NCBI GenBank assembly: GCA_027485645.1
Contig: JAIXQR010000001.1
Location: 186,001-250,000, forward strand
From: a bacterium
GTDB lineage: Bacteria > Armatimonadota > Fimbriimonadia > Fimbriimonadales > Fimbriimonadaceae
DNA length: 64,000 nucleotides
Reading direction: 5' to 3'
A model generated the notes under the pieces. The model did no database searches, had not been told where the DNA came from, and saw nothing but the letters and a program-made list of their open reading frames with translations. A program made the translations under genes and the position numbers. Shown here in pieces: positions 58,844 to 64,000 of this stretch (within the stretch, counting starts at the first letter, position 1; the number at the start of each line of letters is the position of its first letter).

Positions 58844-58949
58844 TCTAAAATCGGTTCCAACGTCCTGCCCCTGGCAAGACTCCCGACCTCCGAACCTAAG
58901 ATGATACCTTGTTGCGGGGTGCGTTCGGCACTCCTTCCGAAAGGGAACC

Positions 58950-58976
58950 GTCTTCGACGTCTCTATAGTCGAAGAC
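58950..58976. repeat. Inverted repeat-end pair
   Basis: GTCTTCGAC (58950-58958) and GTCGAAGAC (58968-58976) are the outer ends of the 85-bp repeats joined head to head with 9 bases between. Looks like a collapsed or miniature derivative. Confidence 0.7.
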
Positions 58977-59049
58977 TACAGAACTGACTCAGTAGAAGTG
59001 AGTTGTCCACGCATGTGGGCGACTTCTGCGAATACCGACCGCGCGTAAA

Positions 59050-59134
59050 GTCTTCGACCCCTCCGGGGTCGGTTCCGGCGCGAGCCTTCCAGGCATTTTC
59101 AATGCCTGGCTACCTTCTTGGTCCCGCTGGGATC
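59050..59134 (+). repeat. Three-hairpin repeat A
   Basis: Order on the plus strand: GTCTTCGACC-CC...GGGGTCG hairpin, CCAGGCATT/AATGCCTGG hairpin, then TACCTTCTTG and a GATCCC/GGGATC-type hairpin. This orientation is called forward. First full copy of eight. Confidence 0.85.
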
Positions 59135-59271
59135 GGGAAAGGGGATGCATCTTGACGCGATGTTCAGAAGTCCGGCTTTCTAGGCTGCGAAAGCTGAAAA
59201 TAGTGCGGTCGCGCTTGAATCGCCCCTCGTCTCTGGGGCGCATCCTCCTCGACCGCGACTCAATTTCGACC

Positions 59272-59349
59272 ATCCCGGAGGGATTAAAGATCGTAGCCCG
59301 GCACTGAAAGTGCCTGGATGGGAGTGCCGACCCCGGAGGGGTCGAAGAT
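59272..59349 (-). repeat. Three-hairpin repeat B
   Basis: Reverse orientation: ATCCCGGAGGGAT, then a slightly changed middle hairpin (CCCGGCACTGAAAGTGCCTGG), then GACCCCGGAGGGGTCGAAGA. Confidence 0.83.
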
Positions 59350-59470
59350 GCTTAGCAGCCACTGACGGCGTTGGGATGCTGAACGCTAAATCCCGTTCTT
59401 CATCCTGAATACGCTGTGTTCTCAAGCTGTGGCACCGAAACAGTCGCATAACGCAGCTCAACGCGTGGTA

Positions 59471-59554
59471 GATCCCGGAGGGATCAAGAAGGTAGCCAGG
59501 CATTGAAAATGCCTGGTAGAGCGGTTTCCCTTCCGACCCGGAAGGGTCGAAGAC
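59471..59554 (-). repeat. Three-hairpin repeat C
   Basis: Reverse orientation, complete. It lies 90 bases upstream of the first transposase gene and faces repeat D on its other side, so the gene is bracketed by inverted repeats. Confidence 0.88.
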
Positions 59555-59643
59555 TACAGAATCAATATGTAATTCAGCTTGAAGTTAGGCGCTCGTCCGG
59601 AGCCGGACGCTAAACTTTGCATACTTTTCACGGGTATTGCTTC

Positions 59644-60084
59644 ATGCCAACAACGCATTCGAGCCTTCACGTTCACGTCATCTTTGCAACGAAAAGTCGG
59701 GCTCCGTTATTAACTCCTGAGCTCATTGAAGATGTCCACAGCTATATTGGTGGCACCTTAAGGTCATTAGATTGCAAGCCAGTAGCGGTTGGTGGGGTTG
59801 AAGATCATGTTCATCTGTTGATTGGCATGAAGCCCGTGCATCGTCTTTCGGACGTGATGCGCGAAACGAAAAAGACCTCATCGATTTGGATGAATGAGCG
59901 AATTCGAGGCTTTGCCTGGCAGCAAGGCTACAGCGCGTTTGGTGTTAGTGCTCACGAAATTTCGATGATGGTTAGGTACATCAGTCACCAGAAAGCGCAC
60001 CATCGGAAAAAGACCTTCGTTGAGGAGCTGGCGGACGTGTACCGATTAGCAGGCATTCCGTTCGAGCCGGGCGAATTCGACTGA
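59644..60084 (+). CDS. IS200-like Y1 transposase (RAYT type), copy 1
   Basis: 146 residues from the ATG at 59644 (an upstream ATG at 59617 adds nine residues). Y1 transposase of the HUH superfamily: His55-Val-His57 in GVEDHVHLLIG binds the metal, and Tyr112 in VRYISHQKAHH is the nucleophile. SSIWMNERIRGFAWQQGYS is typical of IS200/REP-associated transposases. It would cut and join single-stranded DNA at hairpin ends. No TnpB gene is present. Bracketed by inverted repeats C and D. About 73 percent identical by eye to the second copy. Confidence 0.93.
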   Translation: MPTTHSSLHVHVIFATKSRAPLLTPELIEDVHSYIGGTLRSLDCKPVAVGGVEDHVHLLIGMKPVHRLSDVMRETKKTSSIWMNERIRGFAWQQGYSAFGVSAHEISMMVRYISHQKAHHRKKTFVEELADVYRLAGIPFEPGEFD

Positions 60085-60112
60085 CGCTTGCCATCCACGA
60101 TGTCGGCTGTGA

Positions 60113-60199
60113 GTCTTCGACCCCTTCCGGGGTCGGGAGAGACGGGACCTCATCCAGGCATTTTCAATGCCTGGCTACCTTCTTGATCCCTCCGGGATC
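60113..60199 (+). repeat. Three-hairpin repeat D
   Basis: Forward orientation, complete, 28 bases after the first transposase stop. GACCCC-TTCC-GGGGTC, CCAGGCATT/AATGCCTGG and GATCCC/GGGATC stems are all perfect. Confidence 0.9.
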
Positions 60200-60319
60200 T
60201 ACTGCCGATTGCGCTAAGAGTTCCGCGAATTCCTGCACCACAACTTGAGAACGATGCTTGTTCAGAAGAATTAGATTTTTTAGCGTACGGCGTCCCAATG
60301 CCTTCAGCGGCAGATACAA

Positions 60320-60403
60320 GTCTTCGACCCATGCGGGGTCGGTGTTCGCGATTCACGCTAGGCAGTTTCACGATCTGCCAACCTTCTTGATCCTGCTGAG
60401 ATC
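60320..60403 (+). repeat. Three-hairpin repeat E, degenerate
   Basis: Forward orientation. The outer ends are kept (GTCTTCGACCC, CCTTCTTGATC) but the first and third stems are mismatched and the middle stem has changed to GGCAG/CTGCC. An old copy, apparently decaying by point mutations. Confidence 0.75.
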
Positions 60404-60522
60404 GGCTGATGTGAACGAGATCGAAGTAAAGGCTTTCGACCGCAGGAGCTTAAGGTCAAAGTCGATTGCCCAAGTGCTATGGTAAACGACCCTTTCCTCT
60501 GCTTATCGGTGGAAGTTCAGAT

Positions 60523-60607
60523 ATCCCGGAGGGATTAAAGATGGTAGCCAGGCATTGAAAATGCCTGGACGGGCCCGCACGTTACGACCCCGGGAGGGGT
60601 CGAAGAC
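60523..60607 (-). repeat. Three-hairpin repeat F
   Basis: Reverse orientation, complete, 113 bases before the second transposase ATG. Partners with G around that gene, as C and D do around the first. Confidence 0.88.
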
Positions 60608-60719
60608 TTTTGGACTTCCGAACGTTTTCACCACCGATTCGAATCCCCGTGATGTACTTTGGGTCCGCATACTGAAGTGGGCCTCTAAGATTTTCCATAC
60701 TTCAAAACGGGAACTCTCA

Positions 60720-61160
60720 ATGCCAACGACTCACTCGAGCCTGCATGTTCACATCGTCTTCTCTACGAAAGAACGTGCACCGCTTCTGACTACCGACCTC
60801 ATCGAGGATGCCCATGCGTATATCGGGGGAATTCTTCGAGAACTCGACTGCAAGCCTGTTGCTGTCGGCGGAGTCTCAGATCATGTTCACATTCTCGTCG
60901 GCATGAGGCCCATCCATCGGCTGTCGGACGTGATGCGCGAAACGAAGAAGGTCTCTTCGATTTGGATGAATGCAAGACGTAGAGGCTTTGCGTGGCAAGA
61001 GGGTTACGGAGCCTTTGGAGTGAGCAACCACGAGGTTCCGATGATGATGCAATACGTGAGCCACCAAGCCGATCATCACAAAAGCAAGTCGTTTCTAGAG
61101 GAGATGGAGCAGGTCTATCGGCTCGCAGGAGTGCCATTTGATGCGAGTGAGTTTAGTTAA
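60720..61160 (+). CDS. IS200-like Y1 transposase (RAYT type), copy 2
   Basis: 146 residues from the ATG at 60720; the in-frame upstream extension runs into repeat F. The same catalytic layout as copy 1: His55/His57 in DHVHILVG and Tyr112 in MQYVSHQADHH. The N-terminal MPTTHSSLHVH and the block CKPVAVGGV are identical in both. About 40 of 146 residues differ, so the two copies separated long ago yet both keep intact active sites. Bracketed by inverted repeats F and G. Confidence 0.93.
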   Translation: MPTTHSSLHVHIVFSTKERAPLLTTDLIEDAHAYIGGILRELDCKPVAVGGVSDHVHILVGMRPIHRLSDVMRETKKVSSIWMNARRRGFAWQEGYGAFGVSNHEVPMMMQYVSHQADHHKSKSFLEEMEQVYRLAGVPFDASEFS

Positions 61161-61193
61161 TGCGACCGTGATTCTAAACAAGCCGCGCGTGAA

Positions 61194-61278
61194 GTCTTCG
61201 ACCCCTACCGGGGTCGGCGATTGCGGAGTCGACCAGGCATTTTCAATGCCTGGCTACCATCTTTAATCCCTCCGGGAT
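61194..61278 (+). repeat. Three-hairpin repeat G
   Basis: Forward orientation, complete, 33 bases after the second transposase stop. Confidence 0.88.
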
Positions 61279-61411
61279 ACTCGAATGTTGGGTCCGAAGT
61301 GGAGGATGCGCGCCGGAAAGAAGAGCGGTTGAATAAAAACCAAGTGCTATTCAATTCTCACTAACGAGAAAGATGGACTTGTGCAAAACGCACGGATGCA
61401 CACCCTTTTCC

Positions 61412-61497
61412 GATCCCGGAGGGATCAAGAAGGTGGCCAGGCATTGAAAATGCCTGGTAGAGCCGCCAAGTCCCCGACCCCGGAAGGGGTCGAAGAC
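61412..61497 (-). repeat. Three-hairpin repeat H
   Basis: Reverse orientation, complete. With G it forms an inverted pair about 130 bases apart that has no gene inside, similar to a two-repeat BIME. Confidence 0.88.
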
Positions 61498-61555
61498 TTG
61501 GGTCCGCAGGCTGTAGAGAAACGGAGCGCGGAGAAACGCCCGTCTCACGAAGACC

Positions 61556-62107
61556 TTACGCCTCCGGCTGGAAGGCTTCGTCGAGCGGAGCGGGGCTGAT
61601 GTGGTCTAGGTAGTTGCTGATTGTTTTTAGGGCGACGCCTAGGAGGATTTCCATGAGGTTGGCGGGCGTGTAGCCTGCAGCCAGGAAGGCATCTCGGGTT
61701 TCCGTCGAAAGGTAGCCGCGTTCTCGGACGATTTCTCGGACCGTGGTGATCAGGGCCTGGTGCTTATCGTTAGGAACGGCTTCACCAGCGCGGACGGCAT
61801 CCACGATTGCCGGGTCGACCTTCATCATGCTTTTGAGAATCGTGCTGTGCGCCGCGGTGCAGTATCCGCACTCGTTCTCCAAGCTCACCGCAAGAAGGAT
61901 GACCTGTCGCTCGACCGGGGAGAAGCCTGACTGGTTGTAGGCTGCGTCCAGAGCAAGGTAGCCGCTGATGACCGAAGGTGAGTTGGCGAAAGTAGCGAAA
62001 AGGTTCGGAATGAAGCCGAGGCCGCCTTTGACTGCTTTCAGAGATTCAAGGCTCTGCTCAGGCGCGGTTTCAAGGGTGAGTGGTTGAAATAGGGTGGTGG
62101 ACTGCAT
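61556..62107 (-). CDS. AhpD-like carboxymuconolactone decarboxylase-family protein
   Basis: 183 residues from the ATG at 62107, with AAGGAAAA a few bases before it. The redox motif ENECGYCTAAHSTI gives the Cys-x2-Cys-x3-His pair of the AhpD fold, with the usual helices around it (VERQVILLAVSLENE). Peroxidase-related enzymes of this group reduce hydroperoxides. It lies next to the repeat array; no other redox genes adjoin. Confidence 0.9.
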   Translation of the reverse strand: MQSTTLFQPLTLETAPEQSLESLKAVKGGLGFIPNLFATFANSPSVISGYLALDAAYNQSGFSPVERQVILLAVSLENECGYCTAAHSTILKSMMKVDPAIVDAVRAGEAVPNDKHQALITTVREIVRERGYLSTETRDAFLAAGYTPANLMEILLGVALKTISNYLDHISPAPLDEAFQPEA

Positions 62108-62193
62108 GTTCGTTTTCCTTAAATTGTCGAGTGACACCGATTACAGTACCGATCAGTACAAATGAGTTCCCGCTAATTTCAGAGACCACAAAC

Positions 62194-62229
62194 AAAAAAG
62201 CGCCCGACCCAATTTGGGTCGGGCGCTTT
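62194..62229 (-). terminator. Terminator of the anchor-A gene
   Basis: AAAGCGCCCGACCCA and TGGGTCGGGCGCTTT form a perfect stem with a 3-base loop. On the minus strand a run of T follows. Ten bases after the stop of the 62240-63172 gene. Confidence 0.93.
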
Positions 62230-62239
62230 CCGTAGTTGC

Positions 62240-63172
62240 TTAGTTCGAGCGTCGACGTCGGATGAACGCCGCGACACCGGCGCCGAGGGCGAGGAAGGTG
62301 GCTGGCTCTGGTACCGGCGCGGATGGCAGGTTGCCGTTGAACTTGTACTGGTTTCCGAAGTGCAACTCAGCCGAGTTTCGGTTGACCCACGACTTTGCGA
62401 TCATGGTGCCTTGAATGTTCTGGGCCTGGTTGACCGTGGCGTTCACGGCGAGCATCGAGCCATCAAAGTTGCGGTTGGCGACCGTGATGTTCGTGGCGTC
62501 GACGAAGTTCCAAACGAGCTTGTTCTTGTTTGCGTAGTTGACCTGCCAACCCCAGTTAACGGTGGCTCCGGTGACGTTGATCACGACCGTCTCGTTTCCG
62601 TTTCCACCGCTCAGGTTCAGCGTGCTCAGGCTGCTCAGCTGGCTAGCGTTCACGTTGTAAACCTTCAGGTTTCCGTTGCCCGTATTGGAACTCAGGTTAA
62701 CGTTGATGTTGTTCGGGTCGGAAATATTGATTGCCTGTCCGGTCAGGGAGGCAAGGTAGCTCGACTGGTTGGTGCTGTAGTTTCGCTGCTGGTTAAAGAT
62801 CGCAGCCGAAGCTCCTAGTCCACCAGGGTTGAGCTGGCCGTTCTGGACATCGAGGGTCCCAGTAATCGTTCCGCCAACGTAGGCGTTTCCGCGCAGAGTT
62901 CGAGCAACACCCTGAGTGGTGATGTTGCCACCGACATAGATGGCGGCATTGGACGAGCCAGCTACGGACGAAGCGCCGAGGTTGTGGCCGTTTGATTCGT
63001 AGCCCATTTTCCAGTTTCCACCGACGGCCACCGCGCCGTCGCTGTGGCCACCGTTGGTGTCCGCATTCTCAAAGATAAAAGCGTTGAATTCGTTTGCGAT
63101 TCCGAGGTCTACCGCCTGGCCGGAGGCGAGGACGGATGCAAAGATGGCGGTGGTGAACAGGATTTTCTTCAT
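62240..63172 (-). CDS. Choice-of-anchor A family PEP-CTERM protein
   Basis: 310 residues. Signal peptide MKKILFTTAIFASVLASGQA. The start LGIANEFNAFIFENADTNGG with DGAVAVGGNWKM is the entry motif of choice-of-anchor A domains. The body is a beta-rich, asparagine-rich fold. The C-terminus VPEPATFLALGAGVAAFIRR is a PEP-CTERM tag followed by basic residues. It would be exported, cut and attached by an exosortase system encoded elsewhere. Confidence 0.93.
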   Translation of the reverse strand: MKKILFTTAIFASVLASGQAVDLGIANEFNAFIFENADTNGGHSDGAVAVGGNWKMGYESNGHNLGASSVAGSSNAAIYVGGNITTQGVARTLRGNAYVGGTITGTLDVQNGQLNPGGLGASAAIFNQQRNYSTNQSSYLASLTGQAINISDPNNINVNLSSNTGNGNLKVYNVNASQLSSLSTLNLSGGNGNETVVINVTGATVNWGWQVNYANKNKLVWNFVDATNITVANRNFDGSMLAVNATVNQAQNIQGTMIAKSWVNRNSAELHFGNQYKFNGNLPSAPVPEPATFLALGAGVAAFIRRRRSN

Positions 63173-63260
63173 GAGCTGACTAGCACAATTAGTTTGGAGG
63201 GTGCCATGAAGCCCAAGGGGTCAGGCTTTCGCGTGACACCGGATTCCGGAGACCAGAGCG

Positions 63261-64000
63261 CTACTGTTTGATCGCAGAAAAATGAACGCGATCACTCTTT
63301 TTTCGGGGAGGATCGAGGGTGTAGGCATGATAGGCGCGAAGCTCGCCGAAGCCTGCGGCTCGGAGCAATTCTGCGACTTCGTCAATCTCGTAAGCACGCT
63401 GAACGTGCACCTCTTCGAAGGCTTCGCCTTGCCACCAGAACTTCATATAGACCGTGATTAGCCGAGTCACCGGGTCCCATTCGCCGTTCCAAACGTAGCG
63501 GAGCTTCGAGCGCGGTTTCATGTCTGACTGGTCAAAAAGTTGCTCTTCGAACGCGTACGCCATGTTCAGGTCGAAGATAAACGACCCTCCAGCAGGCAAG
63601 TGGTTGGCGACGCACTTGAAGGCACTGCCGAGCCGTTCGGGTTCGAGAATGTTGTTCAGCGAGTCGAACATGCTGTACGCCGCATCGAACGATTCTCCCA
63701 GGCTAAAGTCGCTGGCGTCGGCCACGATGTACGGAATCTGTAAGCCTTTGTCCGTAGCCTTTTGGCGGGCAAGCTCGATCATTCCGGGTGAGAGGTCGAT
63801 GCCGGTTGTGGCAATACCTTCGTTCAGAAGAAGCTCGGCAACGGTCCCGGTGCCACAGCCGACGTCGAGGGCGGTGTGGGGGTGAACGTCTTGGGTGGCC
63901 AAGAGGAGCAGGTAGTAACTCGCCCACATGTCATACGGAACCTTCCGCATGAGCTCGTCATAGTAGGGGGCGACGTTACGGAACGAATCAGCTTTCGGGA
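63261..64000 (-). CDS. Class I SAM-dependent methyltransferase, 5' end outside window
   Basis: Open to the right edge: the frame reads ADSFRNVAPYYDELMRKVPY, which is a typical start of this family and runs past base 64000, so the true start is probably just outside. An internal ATG at 63950 would remove the conserved opening. SAM-binding motif ALDVGCGTGTVAELLLNEGI, then GIDLSPGMIELARQKA and SFDAAYSMFDSLNNIL. Small-molecule methyltransferase; substrate unknown. Confidence 0.92.
   Translation of the reverse strand, partial: PKADSFRNVAPYYDELMRKVPYDMWASYYLLLLATQDVHPHTALDVGCGTGTVAELLLNEGIATTGIDLSPGMIELARQKATDKGLQIPYIVADASDFSLGESFDAAYSMFDSLNNILEPERLGSAFKCVANHLPAGGSFIFDLNMAYAFEEQLFDQSDMKPRSKLRYVWNGEWDPVTRLITVYMKFWWQGEAFEEVHVQRAYEIDEVAELLRAAGFGELRAYHAYTLDPPRKKSDRVHFSAIKQ

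Follow-up and report, generated by a model that had tools for sequence, protein, structure and literature searches.

A probable REPtron-like mobile element with three-hairpin inverted ends and TnpAY1 transposases in a Fimbriimonadaceae genome, and its likely relation to Acido-Lenti-1

INTRODUCTION

The transposases of TnpAY1 subclass 1.2 were first characterised by Quentin et al. (2018; PMC6006769). The parts of that paper that deal with them describe proteins of about 148 amino acids (aa) with the motifs DH[IV]H, WQ and Y---Q--HH, which occur as few divergent copies per genome and mostly in Cyanobacteria and Bacteroidetes; the subclass is entered as 'no' under repetitive extragenic palindromes (REPs) and is generally without terminal IS200 structures. 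Here we analyse two Y1 transposase genes, tnpA1 and tnpA2, that lie within an array of three-hairpin repeats in a 64,000-nucleotide stretch of DNA from a bacterium of the Fimbriimonadaceae (assembly GCA_027485645.1, contig JAIXQR010000001.1, positions 186,001 to 250,000), called the window below; all coordinates without a contig name refer to it. The motifs, the protein length and the low number of divergent copies are those of subclass 1.2, whereas the three-hairpin repeats and the occurrence in many other phyla depart from its published description.

Two further transposase systems resemble the locus. Like REPtrons, with their REP-associated tyrosine transposases (RAYTs) and REPINs, it has a Y1 HUH gene flanked by structured repeats in inverted orientation, repeat pairs that are dispersed and, in the window, a REP-like tag at the foot of the middle hairpin. 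It differs from them in an enzyme that appears to be of class 1, in a repeat of three hairpins rather than one, and in a gene-bearing unit that is duplicated with sharp ends. The insertion sequence (IS) family IS200/IS605 (IS608, ISDra2) provides the closest enzymes by sequence and, judged by E-value, by fold, and the absence of target duplication is a common feature. However, inverted three-hairpin ends are found here in place of the small subterminal hairpins described for that family in passages of PMC6006769, and the genome has two divergent copies, not many identical ones.

The fourth comparison is with an Rfam family, Acido-Lenti-1 (RF01687), whose hairpin, CUA, spacer of about 12 nt and second hairpin match the second and third hairpins of our repeat. 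Rfam gives its type as sRNA. The relevant part of Weinberg et al. (2010; PMC2864571) scores it as a probable RNA ('y') that is probably not cis-regulatory, a passage in a 2026 paper (PMC13298647) states that little is known of its function, and another paper names it among the ncRNAs of Vibrio anguillarum. In the passages of these three papers that name it, it is not tied to a transposase. As published there it is an RNA of unknown function, without our first hairpin and without a mirrored partner, and the copies in the window fall below its score threshold.

RESULTS

Inverted pairs of three-hairpin repeats bracket two Y1 transposase genes

The window contains eight repeats of about 85 nt (A to H) which, together with the two Y1 transposase genes, lie between rplA and a carboxymuconolactone-decarboxylase (CMD)-like gene in the order A-> B<- C<- tnpA1 D-> E-> F<- tnpA2 G-> H<-. 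tnpA1 (59644-60084, plus strand, 146 aa; Pfam PF01797, E 9.3e-24) encodes DHVH, WQ and YISHQKAHH and is bracketed by repeat C (59471-59557, minus) and repeat D (60111-60199, plus), which form the left and right ends of its unit. tnpA2 (60720-61160, plus, 146 aa; PF01797, E 2.6e-23) is bracketed in the same manner by repeat F (60523-60609, minus) and repeat G (61192-61278, plus). All four were identified by alignment, covariance model and folding. The C/D pair is 76% complementary over 117 nt and the F/G pair 89% over 88 nt. Each repeat consists of a hairpin h1 (GACCCC-GGGGTC), a variable spacer, the long middle hairpin h2 (CCAGGCATT-TTC-AATGCCTGG), in most copies the tetranucleotide CTAC, a short spacer and a hairpin h3 (GATCCC-GGGATC) similar to h1. 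In both gene-bracketing pairs h1 faces the gene and h3 lies outermost (<- tnpA ->).

The remaining repeats are A (59048-59134, plus; 96.1 bits with the covariance model, fold z -4.1), B (59272-59352, minus; 80.7 bits), E (60318-60403, plus; 73.4 bits) and H (61412-61499, minus; 100.2 bits, z -6.5). When the repeats were folded as single-stranded DNA and compared with dinucleotide shuffles, seven of the eight were clearly more stable than the shuffles (z -3.5 to -6.5). Repeat E, in which h2 is mispaired, reached a z of only -1.97, a stability equalled by 11 of 200 shuffles. A preliminary description made from the letters alone had proposed eight repeats, the two bracketing pairs and the decay of E, all of which coordinates, alignment and folding bear out. 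It had named G/H as an inverted pair with no gene between; this pair is present, but A/B and E/F are of the same kind, and the sense of such pairs in the window (-> <-) is opposite to that of the gene-bracketing ones. The B-C spacer is similar to the D-E spacer read in the inverse sense. A further copy, said to be reduced to its ends, is probably the remnant at 58949-58983 (no strand assigned), where two facing repeat ends, h1 ends only with the middle gone, are preserved (GTCTTCGAC...GTCGAAGAC), 16 nt of which match the end of C exactly. A similar remnant is found in the closest relative (G014).

The enzymes carry the motifs of TnpAY1 subclass 1.2

The two proteins are 73% identical, and both retain DHVH, WQ and Y---Q--HH with Y112 and Q116 intact, so that the HUH and tyrosine residues are preserved, as had been proposed, at this divergence. 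Both passed the NCBIfam model transpos_IS200 (65.6 and 66.2 bits, cut-off 55). With REP_Tyr_transpos one protein scored 22.8 bits against a cut-off of 80 and the other was not listed; 6 of 21 relatives matched this model at E <= 0.001. Among full-length intact relatives the Y---Q--HH motif was present in 126 of 127 (46/47 and 80/80), and the class 2 signature Y---NP in none of the 127. A profile of 60 relatives compared with the PDB matched chains of IS608, ISDra2 and similar TnpA proteins and no RAYT. The AlphaFold2 monomer of tnpA2 (mean predicted local distance difference test, pLDDT, 89) found the same TnpA proteins by E-value, while its lowest root mean square deviation (rmsd), 3.0 A, was on the RAYT 4er8. 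Class 1 enzymes are dimers that swap the tyrosine helix. Since a single predicted chain will superpose with a higher rmsd because of this exchange, we read the rmsd ranking cautiously.

These results bear on whether the locus is a classical REPtron, in which a domesticated class 2 RAYT maintains REP hairpins and the repeats are merely unusual. The inverted pairs around each gene would agree with this, as would the best rmsd on 4er8 and the tag at the 3' foot of h2: CTAC, which on the other strand reads as the REP tag GTAG, is present in six of the eight window copies and CCAC in H, so that a GT[AG]G-type tag is found in 7/8 and is lost in E. However, the missed REP_Tyr_transpos cut-off, the motif counts and the PDB profile matches all speak against a RAYT, and the gene-bearing unit itself appears to be mobile (see below). 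We regard a classical REPtron as quite unlikely, and assignment of the enzymes to class 2 (RAYT, TnpA-REP) was rejected on motif, model scores and PDB profile matches. The preliminary description, which had called the layout that of a REPtron, is thus supported as to the layout and the enzyme-repeat link, but not as to the class of enzyme.

By their motifs the window enzymes would fit TnpAY1 subclass 1.2, and two copies at 73% identity are what the few divergent copies per genome of that subclass would look like. Many near-identical copies, as expected of an IS, are not seen: the genome has these two, and a single near-identical pair was found in one other genome (G008). The enzymes would therefore belong neither to the class 2 RAYTs nor to an ordinary IS200 element. 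The presence of repeats conflicts with the published surroundings of subclass 1.2 (no REP or terminal structures), not with an assignment of the enzyme that is based on motifs. The REP search of Quentin et al., in the part of PMC6006769 that describes it, demanded a single hairpin with a GT[AG]G tag. Such a search would overlook most of the repeats described here, which may be why the subclass was published as REP-less.

Gene-specific inverted pairs occur across the order and other phyla

We then examined 55 tnpA places in the order, with split places of one gene merged and one locus (L054) and some fragments left unused. The upstream 220 nt were reverse-complemented, aligned to the downstream 220 nt and compared with shuffles. 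In 49 of the 55 places the gene's own inverted flank pair scored above all 50 shuffles, and in 37 its own downstream flank was the best of all 55; hence most tnpA genes of the order have an inverted pair of their own, the sequence of which varies by gene. The h1-h2-h3 anatomy was seen on folding in both protein subgroups. A scan of genome contigs gave 80 named loci (one of which, L133, is the same place as the order locus L048), by their record titles mostly in Verrucomicrobiota, Planctomycetota and Acidobacteriota, with further ones in Bacteroidota, deltaproteobacteria, Nitrotoga, Chloroflexota, Lentisphaerota and others. At 69 of the 80 an inverted pair scored above all 100 shuffles, compared with 3 of 66 for flanks taken 600-820 nt away. 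Of 267 near flanks, 129 satisfied a strict three-hairpin grammar better than all of their 40 shuffles; of 251 distant flanks, 13 did so.

For tests of compensation and of correlation between repeat and protein (Mantel) we used the 107 of 135 loci with a flank score of at least 38. The stems predicted from one copy of a pair were checked against the other copy, with a slid control. Double changes restored a Watson-Crick pair in 52 of 66 cases with the downstream copy as the model (control 18/89) and in 53 of 58 with the upstream copy as the model (control 21/77). The 3' foot of h2 was GCTA or GCTG in 113 of 205 copies, as against 4 of 205 at the mirrored position; this is the tag of the wider family, in place of the GT[AG]G type of the window. 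Repeat similarity rose with TnpA identity (Spearman 0.385, against at most 0.118 in 300 permutations). Relatives were found in two records of a plasmid collection, both from Bacteroidota; one had a three-hairpin pair (score 46, shuffle maximum 31) and the other had none (18, maximum 34). A phage collection gave no matches.

The gene and both repeats recur as one sharply bounded unit

Boundaries of the unit could be read where copies stand at different sites. In G008 two tnpA copies (L105 and L109) that are 98.5% identical lie at unrelated sites, and their homology is confined to 651 bp, bounded on either side by the outer edge of a repeat. A pair in G003 (L093/L094), 87% identical, is bounded likewise. 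In one of the near-identical units, L109 (G008:C1:18669-19103), the catalytic tyrosine is replaced by cysteine. The recurrence of gene and repeats as one sharp-ended unit makes it doubtful that the enzyme is domesticated, as the preliminary description had it.

Gene-less pairs are dispersed as a unit, a trait of REPINs, in Granulicella mallensis X5P3 (G063) and Verrucomicrobia LW23 (G065). Among neighbouring RF01687 matches less than 300 nt apart in these two genomes 26 of 27 were arranged <- ->, mostly 137-152 nt from start to start, while two known tnpA units span 596 and 660. In G063 eleven gene-less pairs and the tnpA unit share their ends; over the first ten bases beyond h3 the mean identity drops to 0.33, and farther out it is about at chance. 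In G065 the shared sequence runs about ten bases farther out from h3, and about forty in some arms. No target duplication was seen around the units. One gene-less pair in G063 (L301, on C1) lies at the exact centre of a palindrome of at least 11 bp, as if the target had been the tip of a hairpin; over 15 units the inverted flank length averaged 2.1 (control 1.0), L301 contributing 11 bp. Copies in G190 were set aside as a guide to the unit boundary, and G063 and G065 used instead, because many of them lie inside another element with terminal inverted repeats, which made them misleading. That element (L227-L246) has a three-hairpin repeat within it, and its own insertion sites are the h1 loops of other such repeats.

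The pattern, as it can be read from these sequences, would be that of a mobile unit with gene-less derivatives. The repeats could instead be a pre-existing palindrome family into which an IS200-like transposase inserts, as other ISs insert into REPs; some genomes do have repeats without the gene, and the insertions into h1 loops in G190 show another element doing just this. Yet insertion into one repeat would yield no inverted pair, each tnpA has its own type of pair, and a boundary of homology at the outer edges of both repeats would be left unexplained. We consider this reading very unlikely.

Acido-Lenti-1 corresponds to the second and third hairpins

The 46 positions of RF01687 comprise h2, CUA, the spacer and h3. 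An Rfam search of 20 loci (18 named and two from the order, chosen to span the groups and to include pairless loci) found RF01687 at the flanks of many of them, with the matches mirrored, and at five of the loci they exceeded the gathering score. In whole genomes, RF01687 exceeded the cut-off in 22 of the 24 tnpA genomes scanned, selected from the 80 named ones on the same principle, with up to 142 matches in one genome (E <= 0.01), and in none of 14 control genomes. Among 149 Acidobacteriota genomes RF01687 (E <= 1e-4) was present in 35 and tnpA in 33: 27 had both, 6 tnpA only, 8 RF01687 only and 108 neither (Fisher p 4.9e-17, shared ancestry ignored). Two genomes (G160, G191) whose tnpA matches reached only E ~1e-12 were not counted as having tnpA.

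These repeats, in the window and in Acido-Lenti-1, could alternatively function as RNAs, whether as terminators, as stabilisers of mRNA or as a small RNA, with the transposon as no more than their carrier. The Rfam type, the 'y' given in the pertinent part of Weinberg et al. and the compensated hairpins are in line with an RNA. The same is true of a gene-less array on another contig of the window genome (L117, G000:C4:32721-33339), shared with G014 (L118), in which the repeats are 90.7% identical and the spacers 62.5%; as the repeats are better kept than the spacers, their hairpins seem to be under constraint, or to be homogenised, even with no transposase nearby. An RNA made from one strand should, however, tolerate G-U over A-C. 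When stems were predicted on both strands, single stem changes were 38 G-T and 34 A-C (p 0.72), about equal and with no G-U preference, which mildly favours DNA. Mirrored pairs at fixed spacing that are bounded by h3, and the co-occurrence with tnpA, also argue against an RNA, and we think it unlikely that RNA function accounts for the repeats. Because RF01687 equals h2 plus h3 of the element ends, Acido-Lenti-1 is more likely a DNA transposition end in other phyla than an RNA gene.

Copies in the genome and history of the locus

The genome to which the window belongs (G000) is 3.19 Mb long and 98.4% complete, and the window lies on its contig C3. The genome-wide search for the middle stem suggested in the preliminary description, with up to three mismatches in h2, gave 14 distinct places, and none when the pattern was read backwards. 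A covariance model built from the eight copies gave 15 at E <= 0.01: eight in the window, three on C4, two on C7 and one each on C5 and C1. The repeats are therefore not confined to the locus; the two genes are the only Y1 genes of their kind in the genome. Of 61 genomes from the order, 21 had tnpA relatives (0-10 matches per genome), 14 had repeats found with the window model and 13 had both (Fisher p 3.7e-7, again with ancestry left out), so that, as expected for an enzyme-repeat link, genomes without the transposase rarely have the repeats; the only such genome is G016.

At the syntenic locus the closest relative, G014, also has an array, which contains the tnpA1 unit but no tnpA2 unit. The comparison of related genomes called for earlier thus gave a locus lacking one unit, but with rearranged arrays, and gain of the tnpA2 unit cannot be told from loss. 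No repeats were found at any of the other 17 rplA loci of the genus that were scanned. In three more distant relatives (L269, L272, L281) rplA adjoins the methyltransferase gene that in the window lies at 63261-63950. About 4.3 kb separate the two genes in the window, occupied by the array, the CMD-like gene and a putative PEP-CTERM protein (58844-63260). Since the two genes are adjacent in these relatives, the stretch between them was probably gained in the lineage of G000 and G014.

DISCUSSION

We conclude, with considerable confidence, that the locus represents a widespread REPtron/REPIN-like mobile element with three-hairpin inverted ends and TnpAY1 HUH enzymes of subclass 1.2, of which Acido-Lenti-1 is h2 plus h3. 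The repeats would be the ends of the element, with h1 beside the gene, the long h2 carrying the tag at its 3' foot and h3 forming the outer terminus. We infer that the enzyme recognises the repeat as single-stranded DNA, that its tyrosine cuts next to the foot of a hairpin, and that it moves either the unit of about 650 bp or, in trans, gene-less <- -> pairs of about 190 bp. Its mode of action would then resemble that of a REPtron and the REPINs derived from it, the differences being the IS200-like enzyme and the three hairpins of the end.

Several observations weigh against this interpretation. No flank pair was found at 6 of the 55 order loci and 11 of the 80 named loci. The gene-less pairs of the window have the sense -> <-, unlike the <- -> pairs of G063 and G065, the window genome has only 15 repeat copies, and a clean empty site was found neither at the syntenic locus of G014 nor for one G014 repeat compared with the window genome. 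RF01687 matched h2 and h3 of repeat B alone in the window, at 21.5 bits against a gathering score of 37, and the best match in 20 order loci scanned was 31.8 bits, with none at the threshold; because these copies lie below it, the link between the window and RF01687 runs via the architecture and the gene family. Many of the RF01687 matches in G190 are inside the unrelated-looking element mentioned above, which has terminal inverted repeats of about 20 bp (GGTGTCTGTGTCATAGCT). Eight of the 35 Acidobacteriota genomes with RF01687 have no tnpA at E <= 1e-10, and four of them (G207, G117, G183, G198) have no tnpA match even at E 0.01; 37 copies of RF01687 were counted in G207. Loss of the transposase, assembly gaps or another enzyme are candidate explanations, and two of the eight (G091, G140) contain tnpA fragments. 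Finally, both Fisher tests treat genomes as if they shared no ancestry.

That the system is real and extends across phyla is well supported. It is probable that subclass 1.2 TnpAY1 founds a separate cross-phylum class of HUH elements with three-hairpin inverted ends, and that Acido-Lenti-1 is its dispersed single-stranded-DNA end and not an RNA. RF01687, a little-understood Rfam family, would thereby gain an identity linked to a function, and a transposase subclass published as REP-less would gain its cognate repeats. The questions of what Acido-Lenti-1 is and what subclass 1.2 does could be addressed with one enzyme and a 90-nt oligonucleotide. The case also carries a caution, as covariation in bacterial repeats can mark the ends of DNA elements rather than RNAs.

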